A DNA stretch of 37,989 nucleotides from an uncultured Bacilli bacterium (GCA_947589675.1 CANQCI010000018.1:1-37989); one strand, 5' to 3'. Positions 11,777 through 24,812 are shown, counted from the stretch's first letter. Translations and numbers: made by a program. The notes: generated from the sequence alone by a model not told the origin.

Positions 11777-12151
11777 TTATTTAACTTCAATTAATTTTTT
11801 ATCTTTGTTTTCATCAATTTTGTTAATAGTAATAACTAAGATACCATCTTTAAAGCTTGCACTGATGTTTTCTTCATCAATATCTTCAATATGGAAGGTT
11901 CTTTCAATTTTGCCATATTCTTTTCTTTCACGATGTAAGTATTTCTTGTTTTCTTCCATACTCTTTTCTTTTTCAAGTTTAATCGTAATATTTCCTTTAT
12001 TACATTCAACTTTAATATCTTCTTTCCTATAACCAGGTGCATCCATTTCAATAATTATTTGATTATCTTTTTCATAGATATCACTTCGCATTTTGGCATC
12101 ATCAGCTAAATCATTAAACAAATCATCAAAAAACATTCTACTTGGTAACAT
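11777..12151 (-). CDS. Hsp20/alpha-crystallin family small heat-shock protein
   Basis: A 124-aa ATP-independent holdase with the alpha-crystallin domain over about residues 20-112. Typical features are IIEMDAPGYRKEDIKVE, the Y-L-H-R-E-R segment, the FKDGILVITI strand and a C-terminal lysine-rich extension; the I-x-I-type tail is short. The ATG at 12151 has AAGGAAG 10 nt upstream. It is a single-gene unit with its own CIRCE-controlled promoter and terminator. It is the only gene in the window with a CIRCE element. Confidence 0.95.
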   Translation of the reverse strand: MLPSRMFFDDLFNDLADDAKMRSDIYEKDNQIIIEMDAPGYRKEDIKVECNKGNITIKLEKEKSMEENKKYLHRERKEYGKIERTFHIEDIDEENISASFKDGILVITINKIDENKDKKLIEVK

Positions 12152-12228: not shown

Positions 12229-12270
12229 ATTATAACTCTCTCATTAGCACTTGTCAACTATAAGTGCTAA
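12229..12270 (-). promoter_or_regulatory. Consensus promoter overlapped by a CIRCE (HrcA) operator
   Basis: TTAGCACTT-N9-AAGTGCTAA (12244-12270) is a perfect 9-bp inverted repeat with the 9-nt spacer of CIRCE, the HrcA repressor site. On the minus strand TTGACA (12252-12257), 17 nt and TATAAT (12229-12234) form an exact sigma-A consensus; the -35 box lies inside the operator. HrcA should therefore block polymerase binding until heat stress. Confidence 0.95.
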
Positions 12271-12308: not shown

Positions 12309-13745
12309 TTACTTATTTTTGTTATTGTTAATTATTAAACCACGTTTTAATTCTTTTTTGCCCCCAATAGTAAATTTAGTTTTTAGATTTTCTTTAGGTA
12401 TAATCAAATGACAATGCAACCTTTTTAAAGATGCTCCGGAATAGGCTGGTTCACCAAAGCGAAAACAAAGTGCTCCCCCAGGTAAATTATATCCTTTGGT
12501 AAGTTCGTTCCAAATATTTTGTAAATCAATCCACATGCTATCATTCATATCTTCCTTACGATAAATAGGATAACGGGAGACGATTAAAAATTGGGCTTCC
12601 ACATCATCATAAGGAAATCTATTTTGGGATACAAACCAATAATTAGTCATAAATAAAATTTCTTGATTAATATACTGAGGATTCAAAGGGTCTTTACCAT
12701 CATTTTCCATATTAATCATAATATCTAGTTGCTCTTGTTTTCTGGCATTAGGTGGATAAATATATTTATAGTTATTAACATCATCTACTATTTCTACTTT
12801 CTTCTTGTTATCTAATAAACATTCTGTTTTAACGCCATTTTGCCGAGCTAAGACATGCGATTTTTTACTCCAATTACGATTAGGATGATCTTCTAAATAA
12901 TATATTTCTTTAACTCCCTTTTCAATTAAGACTTTCATACATTTATCACAAGGAAACAACGTAGTATAAACAGGACTTGTTATTTTATCTATACTTCCTA
13001 TTTTTTTTAACATATTAATTTCTGCGTGTTCCACCGTCGCATAATATAGTTCTGTTCTATTTTCAATATCCTTTTCAGGGATTTTAAAATCAGTTTGATT
13101 AGCTCCAAAAACATAGGTATCATTAACTTGACAACAAGCCGCTACAGGGACAGAAAAATCAGTTGAATTAGGTAAATAATTGATTAATTCAGGGATAGGT
13201 TCAGGCATATCATCAGTATAATTTATCCGTTCTTTCAAACTGGCAATGGCTTCCATTACCTTTTGTTCATTTTGCTTCATCAACCTCCCAGTTGAAGATA
13301 TCATAATTTTTCTTATTTTATCTGAGGTGGATGTTTCTGATTGCCGAGGTAATATTGCTACTTGCCCACAATAATTTTCTAGCTCTTTTATTTCTTCTTC
13401 ATTATAATTTTCCTTGATGGCAACTAAAACATCTGGTTCAATCGTTTTAATTAAATTCCATTTTGGTTCTCTTACTGGTTTAATAACAATTAAATCGGCA
13501 ATATTAAGTAATTTAATAAAATCATATCGTTCTTTTTCGGGAATAATGGGTCGAGTTTCCCCTTTTCTTTTTTTTATTTTTTCATCACTATCCATTGCTA
13601 CGACTAAAAAATCACATAATCCCCGAGCTTTTTTCAAATACCGCAAATGACCAATATGAAATAAATCCCAAGAACCTTGAACTAAGCCAATACTCTTTCC
13701 TTGGGCTCTAGCTTCCATTATTTTTTCAAAATCTTTCTTTCTCAT
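12309..13745 (-). CDS. Triple fusion: nucleotidyltransferase, dCMP deaminase, HIT domain
   Basis: A 478-aa cytosolic protein with three enzyme domains. Residues 18-150: RfaE/TagD-type cytidylyltransferase with GSWDLFHIGH (HIGH at 30-33) and the downstream STSDKIRK segment. Residues about 195-310: zinc deoxycytidylate deaminase with HAE (His240, Glu242) and PCDKC (Cys266, Cys269). Residues about 325-455: HIT domain ending SGASLKRLHCHLIIP, in which His444 would be the nucleophile and the first His of the HxHxH motif is Arg442. The deaminase would supply dUMP to the thymidylate synthase encoded 1 nt upstream; the substrates of the outer domains are unknown. The ATG at 13745 follows the TAA of the upstream gene, with GGGGAT as RBS. 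Confidence 0.88.
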   Translation of the reverse strand: MRKKDFEKIMEARAQGKSIGLVQGSWDLFHIGHLRYLKKARGLCDFLVVAMDSDEKIKKRKGETRPIIPEKERYDFIKLLNIADLIVIKPVREPKWNLIKTIEPDVLVAIKENYNEEEIKELENYCGQVAILPRQSETSTSDKIRKIMISSTGRLMKQNEQKVMEAIASLKERINYTDDMPEPIPELINYLPNSTDFSVPVAACCQVNDTYVFGANQTDFKIPEKDIENRTELYYATVEHAEINMLKKIGSIDKITSPVYTTLFPCDKCMKVLIEKGVKEIYYLEDHPNRNWSKKSHVLARQNGVKTECLLDNKKKVEIVDDVNNYKYIYPPNARKQEQLDIMINMENDGKDPLNPQYINQEILFMTNYWFVSQNRFPYDDVEAQFLIVSRYPIYRKEDMNDSMWIDLQNIWNELTKGYNLPGGALCFRFGEPAYSGASLKRLHCHLIIPKENLKTKFTIGGKKELKRGLIINNNKNK

Positions 13746-13746
13746 A

Positions 13747-14661
13747 TTATATCCCCACTGGTATGCCTTTAATTTTTTCGCCAGCATGATAATCACTTAA
13801 TTCAAAATCTTCCCGGCGATAATCGGTAATGCGGGGATGACTCTTTACTAGTTTTAAAGTGGGATATGCATTAGATGGGCGATTTAGAATCTCATCAACA
13901 TAATCCATTTGATTTTCATAAATATGAGCATCACTTATTTGATGGATAAATTCATAAGGTTGTAATCCTAAAACATCAGCCATGGCAATTAATAAGGCAC
14001 TATATTGAGCCCAGTTACTAGGTAAACCAATTAAAACATCGCTACTTCTTTGCCACAGTAGCATCGTTAATTTATCATCAAAAATGCGAAAGTGAAGCCA
14101 ACCATGACAAGGAGCTACGACTACCTTTTGAGTATTATCACTATTGCGAATAGTATATTGAGGAATCCATGGCGAAATAATATGCGTCTTTAATTCCGGA
14201 CGTTCTTGCATTTGCTTAATTATTTCCGTAAATTGATTAAAAGAACCACCATCAGATGTAGGAAAATTAGCAAAAGCACAACCATAAGAACCTGGTCCTA
14301 AGTCCCCAGCTTCTAAACCTCTTTTAGCACATTTAGTTGGCGTTACCCAAGCTTTCCACCACTTACATCCAAAGGCGGCTAATTCTTCTTGAGTATGAGC
14401 ACCATTAATAAAAGCAAAAAGTTCGCCAATTGCTGATTTATAAAAGCCCGAAATATCTCTTTCCGTTATAATTGGGGCTCCATCTTCCATTTTAAAACGA
14501 ATAGTTGATGCTCCCATTAAATCAAGGGTGCGAATTTCCTTTCCATGTTCATCCACCATGGGGGATGGACTCCAAGTTCCGTTGGCTAAAATTTCGCGAA
14601 TTAAATTTTTATATTGTTCCCCGATTATTCTTTCTTCATATGGTTTATAAAAATCATTCAT
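13747..14661 (-). CDS. thyA: Thymidylate synthase (ThyA family, divergent)
   Basis: Converts dUMP to dTMP with methylene-tetrahydrofolate. The 304-aa protein keeps the catalytic Cys185 (VVAPCHGWLHF), the phosphate-binding Arg205 (QRSSD), Asn216 equivalent to the dUMP-selecting Asn (GLPSNWAQYS), His246/Tyr248 (SDAHIYEN), the folate-side Glu80 and the C-terminal PVGI. Asn rather than Asp argues against a dCMP hydroxymethylase. Divergent points: the usual DRTGTGT loop is IRTLDLMG, and residues 100-135 (KWWKAWVTPTK to YGCAF) differ from typical ThyA. Start at 14661 with GGGAGG 8 nt upstream. First gene of an operon with the triple fusion, so deaminase and synthase are made together. Confidence 0.88.
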   Translation of the reverse strand: MNDFYKPYEERIIGEQYKNLIREILANGTWSPSPMVDEHGKEIRTLDLMGASTIRFKMEDGAPIITERDISGFYKSAIGELFAFINGAHTQEELAAFGCKWWKAWVTPTKCAKRGLEAGDLGPGSYGCAFANFPTSDGGSFNQFTEIIKQMQERPELKTHIISPWIPQYTIRNSDNTQKVVVAPCHGWLHFRIFDDKLTMLLWQRSSDVLIGLPSNWAQYSALLIAMADVLGLQPYEFIHQISDAHIYENQMDYVDEILNRPSNAYPTLKLVKSHPRITDYRREDFELSDYHAGEKIKGIPVGI

Positions 14662-14842
14662 CACAATTACCTCCCTAAAGCCCCTCTTATCCTTTTAGTC
14701 AAACTAATCGTATTAACTACATTCTAGTTTAACAAACCCCTCGGGTAAAAGCAAGGAAAATTTGGAACCTTGGATAAGCTAATTGCATATATTAAAGTGG
14801 GGATAGTATTAAAATTTTTGTCATATAGAGAGGAGGAATTTT

Positions 14843-17337: not shown

Positions 17338-17360
17338 TCGTTTATAGGTTACTTTTGTTT
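17326..17360. terminator. Bidirectional terminator, 12-bp perfect stem
   Basis: AAACAAAAGTAA (17326-17337) and TTACTTTTGTTT (17349-17360) pair perfectly across an 11-nt loop. The TAA of the plus-strand gene is in one arm, and the minus-strand stop (17342-17344) is in the loop, so the hairpin is partly coding for both convergent genes. Confidence 0.85.
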
Positions 17361-18853
17361 TCTGGTTCATTAATAATTAAGGCTTGGGTGGTAAGTAACA
17401 TTCCCGCAATGGAAACTGCATCTTTAAGACTTCTAATAACAACTGAGGCGGGGTCAAGTACTGAGGTTGTTAAAATATCTTCCCATTTATTAGTATTAAC
17501 ATTAAAAGTTTGAGTATAATGCCTATTTTTTAATTCACATTTCTTAGGCTCACTATCTATTCCCGCATTCAAAAGTATTTGATACCAGGGTACTTTTAAG
17601 GCGGTCTTTAGGATTTTACCCCCGATTGTATTAGGTAACTCATCACTTACTTGAAACAAGGTTACGCCGCCCCCGAGAACAATTCCTTTTTTACTTTCCT
17701 CAAGAGCATATAGAGCATCAATAAAACGCATCTTTTTTTCTCGTCGTTCGGTTCTAGTTATTCCCCCGACGAAAATATCCACCAAGCCATGGGAAAACAT
17801 TTGGATTCTTCTTTTTAAAAAGTCGTCTTGTTCTAAGTTATAATTAGCTTCTAAATTTTCTAAATGTTTTTTAATATTAATATCTTTAGCAATAGCAAAA
17901 GTTGTATACTCACCATTAATTATGACATTACCTGTACCTAAAGTTTTACAAGTTATTTTTTCATTATTGATAATTTTACTTTGAGTAATTAAAGAAATAT
18001 CTTCTAAATAAGCCATTTTTTCATAACCATAACCCGGATTTTTTAAAAGATAAATATTTAAATCATATTCAATATTTAAATTTATAATATTTTCGCTAAC
18101 TAAAGGAGAATAATCATCGGCCATAATAAGTAAGGCTTGCTTGGTTTTGATAACTTCTTCTATTACTTGGTGTAATTCAGCAATATCCTCAACTACCCTC
18201 GCCAAAATTAAAACTGCACAATTATCTAAACTTATTTCCTTAGCTTTTTTTAAATAATAATAGCTAGCTAAATTAGTCATTATTTGGTAACCTTGTTCAT
18301 AAATGATTTGCGTTTCCTCCGTCTTACTTTCTTTAATACTTATGGCTAATTTACTTCCCACTTTCTGATAAGCTTCATAAACTTGCTTGCCAATTTCTTG
18401 GTCATTGGCGGCGGATATAGCAATATTTAACATATTAGCTCTTGAGGGAGCCACAATTTTTGCTTCAATTTTATTTATGGCCTCATTTAAACTTAAATCT
18501 AAAGCTTGCTTAATAGTAATCGGTCGTACTTTATTACTTGCCATTAACTTTTTTCCTTCAAAATAAAGAGCTTCTAATAACAACAAAGTAGTAGTGGTGC
18601 CATCCCCGACCATTTCTTCTGTTTTAAGACTGGCTTCTTTTGCTAATTCCATAATTGCAGCAAGAACTTCATCATCACTACTAATAACCCCAGCGATAGT
18701 CACCCCATCATTCGTTATAAAAGGATTAACTATGCCATTATCAATAATAATATTACTTCCCTTAGGACCTAAAGTCATTTTCACAGGAACACATAACATC
18801 TTTAGGGCTTCATCAATCTTAGTACCTAAATTATCAATAATCACTTTCTTCAC
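17342..18853 (-). CDS. Divergent GroEL-type chaperonin without adjacent GroES
   Basis: A 503-aa group I chaperonin subunit. ATPase residues are conserved: TLGPKGSN (28-34), Asp49 in TNDGVTIA, Asp84 in GDGTTT, Asp379 (equivalent to Asp398 of E. coli GroEL) and GIVLGGGV. The C-terminal LDPASVV...SIAGMLLTTQALI segment is typical. It is about 40 aa shorter than canonical GroEL, has no GGM tail, and differs widely in the apical and intermediate domains. The start overlaps the end of the DUF4130 gene by 20 bp, so it is translated as part of the radical-SAM operon. No groES and no CIRCE are present here. It may be the sole chaperonin or a specialised paralogue; the window cannot say. Confidence 0.9.
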   Translation of the reverse strand: MKKVIIDNLGTKIDEALKMLCVPVKMTLGPKGSNIIIDNGIVNPFITNDGVTIAGVISSDDEVLAAIMELAKEASLKTEEMVGDGTTTTLLLLEALYFEGKKLMASNKVRPITIKQALDLSLNEAINKIEAKIVAPSRANMLNIAISAANDQEIGKQVYEAYQKVGSKLAISIKESKTEETQIIYEQGYQIMTNLASYYYLKKAKEISLDNCAVLILARVVEDIAELHQVIEEVIKTKQALLIMADDYSPLVSENIINLNIEYDLNIYLLKNPGYGYEKMAYLEDISLITQSKIINNEKITCKTLGTGNVIINGEYTTFAIAKDINIKKHLENLEANYNLEQDDFLKRRIQMFSHGLVDIFVGGITRTERREKKMRFIDALYALEESKKGIVLGGGVTLFQVSDELPNTIGGKILKTALKVPWYQILLNAGIDSEPKKCELKNRHYTQTFNVNTNKWEDILTTSVLDPASVVIRSLKDAVSIAGMLLTTQALIINEPENKSNL

Positions 18854-19592
18854 TATTTACCTCCTCAATATATTGCCAATATTTCTTCGGCATCATTTGT
18901 CTTTGTAAATTTTTATTTTGTCTTTCTTTAATCCCAATCGTTTTAAAAAAAGTTTGCCATAATTCTTGAAACTTTTGTTCATCTTGGGCTATCTCTAAAT
19001 TTATATTAAGCATGTTAGCATCCCTTAAATAAACTTCACGTTTATCATAAAAAGCCACGATATTTCTTTTAACATCTTTAATTAACCAATATTCATTTTT
19101 AAATCTTTTCTTAAAATGATTAACTAAAATAGGTAAAATATTATTCGTAGGAGCAAATTCCGCATACCATACTTCCCTTTTTAATTTTTTAAAACGTAAA
19201 AAGCCTTTAAACTTATGATTTTCTCTTCGCACATAACCACTTGCCTTTAAGGCATCATTTATCACCCCAATTCGTCTTAAATTATAAACTTGTTCATGAT
19301 ACTTAGTACTATATAATAAAAAATAATATATCAGCATTTCTTTTTTTAAATGATTAGATAAATAAATATAATATAAATCTATAACTATTCTTTTTCCTAA
19401 ATTATCTATTAACCGTTTAATAATTAAGTCATCTTCTTCTAAATTTAAACTTATAACCGGATTAAATAAATTTAATTCACAATTATTAGTAATATTAAAA
19501 GGTATAATATTTAATAAAAATAATTTCTTAATTAAAACTAATAAACTAAGAAAAGAATCATTATAGATATATATTTCGTTAGTTTTCTTCAT
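18834..19592 (-). CDS. DUF4130 protein (TIGR03915-type), partner of radical SAM protein
   Basis: A 252-aa protein of the probable DNA metabolism family that is regularly paired with the radical SAM protein encoded upstream. Recognisable blocks are IYIYNDSFLSLL at the N-terminus, RENHKFKGFLRF and VWYAEFAPTNNILPILVNHF in the middle, and RQMMPKKYWQYIEE near the end. The biochemical role is not established; a DNA modification or repair function is inferred from family co-occurrence. It overlaps the radical SAM gene by 14 bp and the chaperonin gene by 20 bp, so expression is tightly coupled. It ends TGA TAA. The ATG at 19592 is preferred over a TTG one codon upstream. Confidence 0.88.
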   Translation of the reverse strand: MKKTNEIYIYNDSFLSLLVLIKKLFLLNIIPFNITNNCELNLFNPVISLNLEEDDLIIKRLIDNLGKRIVIDLYYIYLSNHLKKEMLIYYFLLYSTKYHEQVYNLRRIGVINDALKASGYVRRENHKFKGFLRFKKLKREVWYAEFAPTNNILPILVNHFKKRFKNEYWLIKDVKRNIVAFYDKREVYLRDANMLNINLEIAQDEQKFQELWQTFFKTIGIKERQNKNLQRQMMPKKYWQYIEEVNSEESDY

Positions 19593-20775
19593 CAAATAAA
19601 CTTAATTGCCGACTTTTAGTTTCGGGGATTAATTTAGCTTTAATATCATGGGCTAAAAAGCTTTGTTGTAAATAATACTTTCCTGAACAAGTTATAAAAT
19701 ATTTAGCTCTTTTTAAAACAACCCCTAGTTTTTGAAGATCACGAAAATCTAAAGGAAATAATTCCCGGCTACTCATAATGCGTTTAGCACTTTTTAAACC
19801 AATTCCTGGGACTTTTAATAATTCTTCATAACTACATTTATTTATATCTTTTGGATATTCATCTAAATGACTTAGGGCATAACTTTCTTTAGGGTCATAT
19901 AATAAACTTAAATGGGGATTTTCTTTGCTTACTAAATCACTAACTTTAAAATGGTAAAAACGCATAAGCCAGTCCGCTTGATAGAGCCGATGTTCTCTTT
20001 TTAAAGGCGGATTTAAAACGGGCAAAAGTTTATTTTGATTAACCGGAATATAAGCGGAATAAAAAACCCGTTTTAAATGATAGTTATGATAAAGATTTTG
20101 ACTTTGGTTTAAAATATGCCAATCACTTTCTTCTGGAAGTCCAACCAGCATTTGGGTGCTTTGACCCGCGGGAACAAATTGCGGACTTTTATTATCCCTG
20201 ATATATTTCATAACCTTATAAGCATTTTCATGAGTTTTGTTAGGAGCTAAAAGTTTTAAGGCGGGGTCAGTTGCTAGTTCCACATTTACACTCATGCGGT
20301 CAGCTAAAAGACCAAGCTTTTTAATTAACTCTTCCCTCGCCCCCGGAATTGCTTTCACATGAATATAGCCCCGAAAATGGTATTTATGCCGGAGTAATTC
20401 TAAAGTTTTAATTAATAAACTAACAGTATAATCTGGACTTTTAATAATACCCGAACTTAAAAATAAACCTTCAATATAATTCCGACGATAAAAATTTAAC
20501 GTAATTTCACAAACTTCCTCCGGGGTAAAACAAGCTCTTTTAATTTCATTATCCCGCCGATTAGGACAATATAAACAATTAAAAATACAACAATTAGTAA
20601 ATAAGATTTTTAAAAGCGAAATACACCTTCCATCACTACTATAAGAGTGACATATTCCAGAGGTCGCAATAGACCCCAGCCCAGGCATCTTTTGAGTTTT
20701 CCCTCCACTTGAGCTACAGGAGGCATCATATTTCGCACTATCCGCTAAAATTTGTAATTTTTCTTGTAAGTCCAT
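19579..20775 (-). CDS. Putative DNA modification/repair radical SAM protein (TIGR03916-type)
   Basis: A 398-aa radical SAM enzyme. The 4Fe-4S motif CX3CX2C is Cys63, Cys67, Cys70 (CIFNCLYCPNRRDN). A Cys-Ser-Ser-Ser-Gly-Gly segment near the N-terminus and MPGLGSIATSGICHSY are family signatures. The C-terminus has a helix-hairpin-helix, LLKVPGIGLKSAKRIM, which suggests non-specific DNA contact. Family knowledge: always or nearly always with a DUF4130 protein; the reaction is unknown. The ATG at 20775 has GGTGA 7 nt upstream and TATAAT about 25 nt upstream. First gene of the operon with DUF4130 and the GroEL-like gene. Confidence 0.9.
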   Translation of the reverse strand: MDLQEKLQILADSAKYDASCSSSGGKTQKMPGLGSIATSGICHSYSSDGRCISLLKILFTNCCIFNCLYCPNRRDNEIKRACFTPEEVCEITLNFYRRNYIEGLFLSSGIIKSPDYTVSLLIKTLELLRHKYHFRGYIHVKAIPGAREELIKKLGLLADRMSVNVELATDPALKLLAPNKTHENAYKVMKYIRDNKSPQFVPAGQSTQMLVGLPEESDWHILNQSQNLYHNYHLKRVFYSAYIPVNQNKLLPVLNPPLKREHRLYQADWLMRFYHFKVSDLVSKENPHLSLLYDPKESYALSHLDEYPKDINKCSYEELLKVPGIGLKSAKRIMSSRELFPLDFRDLQKLGVVLKRAKYFITCSGKYYLQQSFLAHDIKAKLIPETKSRQLSLFDEEN

Positions 20776-20807
20776 GGCTAATCACCAAAATTATTATACC
20801 CCCAATT

Positions 20808-20837
20808 AAAAAAGATGTAAGGGTTTTAAGCTTACAT
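20808..20837 (-). terminator. Intrinsic terminator after the ferritin-like gene
   Basis: On the minus strand ATGTAAG (20831-20837) pairs with CTTACAT (20815-20821) over a 9-nt loop, followed by CTTTTTT. The ferritin-like stop codon is in the first arm. It separates that gene from the radical SAM operon 57 nt downstream. Confidence 0.7.
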
Positions 20838-23310: not shown

Positions 23311-23847
23311 ATGAAATTAGAAAAACATGAAAAAGCCTCTTTATTAACTTCCATATTTTTTATTGGAGCAATATCAGGATATATTTATGAAGTAATCTTT
23401 TATTTTCTTACGGAAAATAGACTTGACAATGCAGGATTATTAATTGGGCCATGGCTCCCTATCTACGGCACTGGGGCTTTATTAATTTATTTGTTAGGTT
23501 CAAAATTAAAGGACAAACCACCTATTCTTTTCGGAGCTATTATTTTAATAACCGGTATTTTAGAATATCTCGTGGGACTTTTTTATTATCATGTTTTTCA
23601 TCTTCGTCTTTGGGATTATCGCCATTTATTTTTAAATATTAATGGTTTTGTTTGCTTTCGAAGCGTTATAACTTTTGCTATCGGGGGCATGCTTTTAATG
23701 TATGGGATAATTCCCCTTTTAAAAAAAATTAATCAAAATAAAGGATATTATAAAATTCTTTATAATATCCAAACAATTTTAGTTATCCTTTTTATTATTG
23801 ATTTATTTTTTAGTAATTATCTTCATCATTTACCTTATTTATATTAA
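23311..23847 (+). CDS. CmpB-type multi-pass membrane protein (PF06541-like)
   Basis: A 178-aa protein with about five membrane helices. Signature segments are [26 protein letters not shown] and [34 protein letters not shown], which match the putative ABC-transporter type IV (CmpB) family of Firmicutes; the transport role is only a family annotation. No ATPase partner is adjacent. Start chosen at ATG 23311; the TTG at 23302 has no better site, and RBS support is weak for both. The stop overlaps the convergent Clp-like gene by 4 nt (shared TTAA). Confidence 0.8.
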
Positions 23848-24764
23848 TCTACTTCATCTAAGTCAGTTTGTTCCGTTAGTAATAAGTCTTTAAATTCTTC
23901 TTTAAACCGCACTTTTTCTTTAGCTTTAACATCTTCATAAATATTTTTGGCATTACAAATGGCTTTATAAAAATGGATTAATTTAACTTGTTTTTTATTA
24001 TCATATAAAGCATAAGTAAAAGCATTAGCCACAATTGTTAAAGTAATATCAGGATACCGGCTGGCTATTTCGTAAACTCTTTTATATTCATCAGTCATTT
24101 CTACTAAAAATCTAACGATTTTTTCCACAATAAAGGGTTGATACTCCAGTTTGACACCAATTTGTTTTTCTAATTTAGGAATTGTTCCCATAACAATTTT
24201 AACCACAGTTGGTTTATCACATTCTAAAACTTCTATTTTTTGAAAACGTCTTAAAAAAGCTCGATCTCTTAAAATATATTGTTCATATTCCTCAGTAGTC
24301 GTTGCCCCAATCATTTTAATAGTTCCCCGGTCAAGTCCCGCTTTTAACATATTAGCAAAGTCAAGTCCCCCTTGTTTATTGACTAAAAGATGGGTTTCAT
24401 CAACAAAAATAATGGTATTTAAACTATTTTCTAATTCCCGAACTAATAAATCAATCCGGTTTTCCATGACTCCTTCACTAGTTGTATTCCCAATTAAACT
24501 AGTAATATTAATTTTAATTAAACTATAATTTTTTAAAGCATCGGGAACTGTGCCATTTTTGATGCGGTAAGCTAATCCTTCCACTATCGCTGTTTTCCCA
24601 ATCCCGGGCTTCCCTACTAATAAAGCACTTTTTTCAGGGGTCAGTAGCGTTAAAATAACTTGTTTTATTTCCTCATCACGAGCAATCGCAGGATCGGTAA
24701 TATATTCTTTGTTTACTAAATCTGTCCCATAACGGGCTAACATACTTATCTTTTCATTATTCAA
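23844..24764 (-). CDS. Stand-alone single-ring Clp-type AAA+ ATPase (ClpB/ClpC D1-like)
   Basis: A protein of about 306 aa that matches only the D1 AAA+ ring of ClpA/B/C. Walker A is [18 protein letters not shown], Walker [11 protein letters not shown], sensor 1 IGATTTEEY, and the arginine finger region [14 protein letters not shown]. The Clp N-domain, M-domain and D2 ring are absent. Such single-ring homologues occur in some Firmicutes and in type VI/VII-like systems; here no protease or secretion gene is adjacent. A TTG at 24764 lies 5 nt after AAGGTGA and is the likeliest start; a GTG at 24773 lies inside that site. Its partner may be an adaptor elsewhere. Confidence 0.85.
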
Positions 24765-24812
24765 CTTTATCACCTTTAATTAGATTATACCATAACTTTT
24801 AAATTTTTTTTA

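Follow-up and report, generated by a model that had tools for sequence, protein, structure and literature searches.

The chaperonin GroEL is, in the textbook view, a general, essential, GroES-dependent heat-shock machine. The window examined here, a 37,989-nucleotide stretch of DNA from an uncultured Bacilli bacterium, raises the question of why a GroEL relative should be encoded in one overlapping operon with two proteins of the DNA modification and repair type, and whom this chaperonin serves.

Architecture of the Three-Gene Operon

Three open reading frames run head to tail on the minus strand from 20775 to 17342 and encode a radical SAM protein, a DUF4130 protein, and a divergent, GroES-less group I chaperonin (together referred to as the triad). 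The radical SAM protein (19579–20775; 398 aa) matches TIGR03916, a model of putative DNA modification/repair proteins with a helix-hairpin-helix, at 575.7 bits against a profile cut-off of 343.5. Its translation contains the CX3CX2C [4Fe-4S]-binding motif (Cys63, Cys67, and Cys70; 20566–20589), and residues 310–335 (19771–19848) match the helix-hairpin-helix profile PF00633. The DUF4130 gene (18834–19595) starts with TTG at 19595 or ATG at 19592; its product scores 191.7 bits in a profile search against TIGR03915 (cut-off 112) and lacks a uracil-DNA glycosylase domain. The two genes are adjacent and both exceed the cut-offs of their models, so by sequence they qualify as a TIGR03916/TIGR03915 pair.

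The chaperonin gene (17342–18853; 503 aa) begins with GTG, 6 nt downstream of a strong Shine-Dalgarno sequence, AGGAGG (18860–18865), that lies within the end of the DUF4130 gene. The radical SAM and DUF4130 genes overlap by 14–17 bp and the DUF4130 and chaperonin genes by 20 bp. A probable operon promoter (20793–20821, minus strand) has its −10 element, TATAAT, at 20793–20798, just before the radical SAM gene, and a TATAAT-type −10 is found at the same position in 23 of 25 triad loci. The preliminary description of this locus as one overlapping three-gene operon, with the motifs and domain identities given above, is thus borne out, and the same operon was recovered in 24 of 145 related genomes and on two further contigs of metagenome-assembled genomes (MAGs).

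The Triad in a Family That Has Mostly Lost GroEL

The distribution of the triad was examined across the family in 145 genomes, nearly all of them from different genera and all draft MAGs. A Cpn60 match is present in 26 of these genomes and a radical SAM protein above cut-off in 23; in all 23, the chaperonin is next door with DUF4130 between. A 24th triad genome, G027, has a contig edge that falls inside the operon. The chaperonin therefore lies directly downstream of the native pair in 24/24 genomes, with no native pair lacking it, and this type of chaperonin was never found apart from the pair in the family genomes. Of the genomes without the triad, 119 have no GroEL and only two carry one: G016, with a canonical, adjacent groES-groEL, and G069, with a divergent 457-aa chaperonin among phage-like genes (neighbours read by eye, not library-scanned). 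The contig of the latter (L085, G069:C9:18000-36500) is itself phage-like and has a portal-like gene near the chaperonin.

One pair-like match without GroEL, in G076, is a TIGR03916 relative of 38% identity on an archaeal-looking contig. This contig (L087, G076:C6) encodes Alba-, ParA-, and TrpB-like proteins beside its own TIGR03916 relative and, judging from neighbours read by eye, is likely contamination binned into a Bacilli genome. Two contigs of Bacilli MAGs from rabbit gut carry the same operon and no second GroEL.

The co-occurrence of pair and GroEL across the 145 genomes gives a Fisher p of 2e-25, and 8/8 phylogenetically independent contrasts on an rpoB tree are concordant (sign test, median p about 0.008). 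Chance linkage was rejected on the strength of the 24/24 co-occurrence and the 8/8 independent pairs; the association is more than chance, in a gut-bacterial family that mostly lost GroEL/GroES and in which the three genes occur only together. The preliminary description had held that the operon link would be chance if this were the only groEL, groES lay elsewhere, and relatives kept the gene in unrelated contexts. The first part applies, as the triad chaperonin is the only groEL of its genome; the refutation nevertheless fails, because there is no groES and relatives keep the same gene order, overlaps included.

An Intact ATPase Site in a Chaperonin without GroES

The window genome (1.46 Mb, 95% complete) contains a single PF00118 match and no match to GroES (PF00166). 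No GroES above the PF00166 cut-off was detected in any triad genome, and a hidden groES was rejected on that ground. The single match is the triad chaperonin, which scores 143.6 bits over residues 24–495 (cut-off 34.3) and 275.6 bits against the GroEL equivalog model TIGR02348, below the curated cut-off of 582. It is divergent, with 30% identity to reference GroELs; its predicted structure is a complete GroEL subunit (pLDDT 91; Z 42 to GroEL).

When 25 triad chaperonins were aligned with 21 references, E. coli GroEL among them, the ATPase residues equivalent to E. coli Asp52, Asp87, Asp398, and Asp495 proved to be conserved in 25/25 triad sequences. The window's copy has the GDGTT nucleotide-binding motif (residues 83–87; 18593–18607) and the catalytic Asp379, equivalent to Asp398 (17717–17719), both on the minus strand. 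Tyr199, Asn265, Arg268, Arg197, and Arg501, fully or almost fully conserved among the references, are found in none of the 25. The salt bridges Arg197–Glu386 and Glu409–Arg501 lack both arginines throughout, with Glu386 kept in 6/25 and Glu409 in 3/25; Leu234 is replaced mostly by Ser, Ala, or Gly and Val264 mostly by Ser. No Gly-Gly-Met (GGM) tail was seen in the 25 sequences. At six of the eight classical hydrophobic substrate-groove positions (237, 259, 263, 203, 204, and 199) the triad residues are mostly hydrophobic, so the groove appears still able to bind a chain and wider substrate binding is not excluded.

The apical domain is the fastest-changing part of the protein: triad sequences share 49% identity with one another in the equatorial domain and 33% in the apical one, compared with 59% and 55% among references. 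These results agree with the preliminary description, which had noted conserved ATPase residues, a divergent apical domain, and the absence of a GGM tail and of groES, and which had called for a search for a second canonical groEL or a groES; the window genome yielded neither. Two further candidate features were set aside. A change of Lys51 to Asn is not special to the triads, as reference Bacilli GroELs also carry Asn, and a new conserved, DYNEL-like C-terminal tail is present in only 11/25 triad chaperonins and is not claimed.

In a tree of 62 sequences, the triad GroELs are split from the sampled viral and reference GroELs by a branch with 100% SH-aLRT support, and the canonical GroEL of G016 is their nearest outsider. 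This placement would fit descent of the triad chaperonin from the groESL that the family lost, an inference that has to be qualified by the long branches. A viral origin was rejected, as neither radical SAM nor DUF4130 genes occur close to 80 viral GroEL loci and the triad chaperonins group apart from the sampled viral ones; a scan of viral contigs with the radical SAM protein gave no match.

Probable Inheritance of the Triad as a Unit

Mapped onto an rpoB tree covering 99 genomes, the triad requires at least 8–12 changes: 12 on the tree as such, 8 of them forced by supported branches. Order and overlaps are kept (intergenic gaps of −56 to +15 bp, mostly −4, −8, −17, and −20), whereas the genes flanking the triad differ in every genus and no fourth conserved gene accompanies it. 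Pairwise distances of the three genes correlate with one another at r of about 0.8 after removing rpoB, compared with only 0.19–0.35 with rpoB itself, and well-supported split conflicts number 26–39 against rpoB and 3–6 among the three genes. DUF4130 changes only slightly more slowly than the chaperonin. As the three genes track one another while departing strongly from rpoB, they probably move together. The simplest interpretation of these trees is that the triad is exchanged horizontally in one block, with the caution that single-gene trees are noisy, the proteins evolve quickly, and the genomes are drafts.

Promoter and Putative SOS Control

Upstream of the first gene, a LexA/DinR (SOS) box of the lexA-promoter type, CGAACRNRYGTTYG, is present at three or fewer mismatches in 23/25 loci. 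At two or fewer mismatches it is present in 19/25 (76%), compared with 0.9% of shuffles. It sits mostly at −56/−57, its right half overlapping the −35 element. At two or fewer mismatches, 21 boxes fall within the 3 kb that lie up to 120 bp upstream of the first gene, versus 11 in the other 401 kb of the same loci. Of 28 genomes tested for lexA, 24 have the gene, and lexA promoters of these genomes carry the same box at a similar distance (17/23 at two or fewer mismatches). Clostridial pairs likewise carry an SOS box. It was seen with the pairs of Eubacterium eligens, Acetoanaerobium, Pusillibacter, and two faecal scaffolds, and no GroEL was found within about 6 kb of them (less at record ends).

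The window's own promoter has no such box, and none occurs at two mismatches anywhere in the window. SOS control of the operon is therefore supported for the relatives, by their promoter sequences and without induction data, and not for the window, whose copy has lost the box that most relatives carry. The window genome encodes a divergent LexA (L328, G000:C21:6853-7374) that scores 109.9 bits against TIGR00498, below cut-off, with relatives at about 200–235, and a 2-mismatch box lies upstream of this lexA. The divergent LexA and a triad without an SOS box thus occur in one genome, the window's.

No CIRCE element precedes the operon in any of the 25 triad loci, the window's included. The CIRCE that had been seen ahead of hsp20 is real (12244–12270, 2 mismatches, 0 expected; about 93 bp upstream of hsp20 at 11777–12151), and hrcA is present in the window genome, at C20. 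The preliminary description had taken the lack of CIRCE as an argument for a dedicated role. The absence stands, with one correction: in most relatives the control is, judging from sequence, of the SOS/LexA type, and it is this box that the window's copy has lost.

Proposed Role of the Chaperonin

The preliminary description had suggested that the chaperonin may be a dedicated assembly or folding factor. The 24/24 linkage, the absence of groES, the scrambled flanks, the shared history, and the SOS box of relatives give this notion much stronger support than the window alone could, although dedication to folding is still an inference. The best explanation, with a probability of about two in three, is in our view that the chaperonin works without GroES and is devoted to the folding or assembly of the repair pair in hosts that otherwise lack chaperonins; neither the client nor the chemistry has been demonstrated. 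The fuller proposal is held with less assurance, at slightly better than even odds: a portable, SOS-controlled repair module exchanged among chaperonin-less bacteria, in which the private, GroES-independent chaperonin has its own radical SAM and DUF4130 proteins as only clients or working partners.

In this three-gene DNA-damage module, the radical SAM/helix-hairpin-helix protein and DUF4130 form a known SOS-type DNA modification/repair pair, and the third gene would supply a ring ATPase of the GroEL family that has given up GroES and has the pair as its only clients. Translational coupling could place nascent radical SAM protein, DUF4130, or both beside freshly made chaperonin. The open ring would then hold a non-native client, or else the [4Fe-4S] apo-enzyme or the two-protein complex, via the remodelled apical groove and release it by ATP-driven cycles without encapsulation under a lid. 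The module would carry its own chaperonin because the hosts lost groES-groEL.

What is observed here is the linkage, the absence of groES, the intact ATPase residues, the altered apical and allosteric residues, and the SOS boxes of relatives. Action on the radical SAM protein or DUF4130, lid-free action, and co-translational loading are inferred, in the absence of interaction or client-dependence data. The cores of radical SAM proteins resemble TIM barrels, which are frequent among obligate GroEL clients, and this makes the radical SAM protein a fair first guess as client; the data give no means of choosing between it and DUF4130. As the sole chaperonin in triad cells, the protein could also have other clients. 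The pair also occurs in Clostridia, Bacteroides, and Fusobacterium, there without an adjacent chaperonin gene, so dependence on a chaperonin is not intrinsic to the family of pairs unless host GroEL supplies it.

A different reading, which we regard as improbable, is that the ring is a working part of the repair machine. It would then serve as a scaffold or gate driven by ATP, binding radical SAM protein and DUF4130 in their mature form, or DNA, instead of folding the two proteins. Obligate linkage, shared inheritance, the SOS timing in relatives, and the nearly equal evolutionary rates of DUF4130 and chaperonin speak for this reading, as does the loss of the GroES-type apical and inter-domain salt-bridge residues from a ring with an intact ATPase. 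However, the hydrophobic groove is mostly kept, the model resembles an ordinary GroEL subunit, and the pairs without an adjacent chaperonin in Clostridia, Fusobacterium, and Bacteroides place the ring outside the core machine.

Equally doubtful is the possibility that the cell's remaining general chaperonin is merely parked in the operon, its linkage reflecting one ancestral event followed by vertical inheritance. In favour of this, the triad chaperonin is the sole Cpn60 of its genome, its ATPase is intact, and its nearest relative in the tree is the family's canonical GroEL of G016. Yet 119 family genomes live without any GroEL, and this type was not encountered apart from the pair. Further points against it are the concordance of gains and losses, the rpoB conflict, the scrambled flanks, and control signals of the SOS type in place of CIRCE. 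Finally, hitchhiking or an artefact, in the sense of an accidental overlap and neighbourhood or a decaying GroEL, could draw on the 30% identity and the score below the equivalog cut-off but is refuted by the comparative data, as open frames are kept in 24 family genomes and two MAG contigs and the catalytic residues in 25/25.

Relation to Known Systems

We take COG4277 to be the radical SAM family of this operon. An SOS-regulated two-gene COG1573–COG4277 operon has been reported (PMC8565304), and DUF4130 has been described with SplB-like radical SAM proteins and uracil-DNA glycosylases (PMC3765255). The triad shares with this TIGR03916/TIGR03915 pair the two genes, their order, and, in relatives, the SOS control; it differs in the third, co-translated chaperonin gene and in the lack of a uracil-DNA glycosylase domain in DUF4130. 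With GroEL/GroES it shares fold and ATPase site, whereas it lacks GroES and the GGM tail, has replaced apical and salt-bridge residues, keeps fixed partner genes, and in relatives carries SOS boxes in place of CIRCE.

The giant-phage chaperonins (gp146 of phage EL, and AR9) are likewise GroEL relatives reported to act without GroES, and that of phage EL associates with one phage endolysin, gp188 (PMC7185714). The triad, in contrast, is a bacterial operon whose chaperonins group apart from the sampled viral ones. GroE-negative and GroE-reacquiring mollicutes are also reduced Bacilli that lost GroE, but all GroE-positive mollicutes in the survey have GroES too (PMC5810989), whereas in the triad GroEL has been kept without GroES and is linked to a repair pair.

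Already known are the pair with its SOS control, the loss of GroEL in mollicutes, and phage chaperonins that do without GroES. In the open-licence literature, we came across no description of a chaperonin permanently linked to the radical SAM/DUF4130 pair and no paper naming TIGR03916, or RF39 with GroEL. In otherwise GroEL-less bacteria, the last chaperonin appears locked to a single DNA-damage operon. The triad is a natural minimal system for asking what makes proteins need a chaperonin and how a GroEL can function when GroES and the closed cage are missing, and its named partners offer a handle on the reaction of a widespread pair.

DUF4130 Fold and Neighbouring Genes

No PDB relatives of DUF4130 were found by sequence. 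Its model (pLDDT 85) gives weak but repeated matches to DHH/DHHA1 phosphoesterase-like folds (best E 0.017). The structural matches, headed by the PAP phosphatase 8a8k (Z 8.3) with RecJ/Cdc45 at Z 6–7, are mostly RecJ, Cdc45, and NrnA; Z values below 8 are common background. The resemblance may assign a fold to a domain whose function is unknown.

Ku is present in 18/24 triad genomes versus 7/121 others (p 1e-12), but phylogeny-aware tests are not significant, and co-occurrence with Ku/NHEJ is kept as a lead and not as an established link. At five loci (L064, L071, L072, L076, and L082; genomes G024, G119, G045, G071, and G136), the triad has a LigD phosphoesterase-polymerase gene no more than about 4.3 kb away; two of these loci also have an ATP-dependent DNA ligase and Ku.

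Elsewhere in the window, a single reading frame at 12309–13796 combines an RfaE-II-like nucleotidyltransferase domain, a dCMP-deaminase-like domain, and additional C-terminal sequence. Its end runs into the beginning of the following frame (13747–14664), which is thymidylate-synthase-like by eye. At 23844–24773, a stand-alone protein of 309 aa corresponds to the first AAA module of ClpA/ClpB only, and relatives of this gene occur near the triad in G045 and G071.
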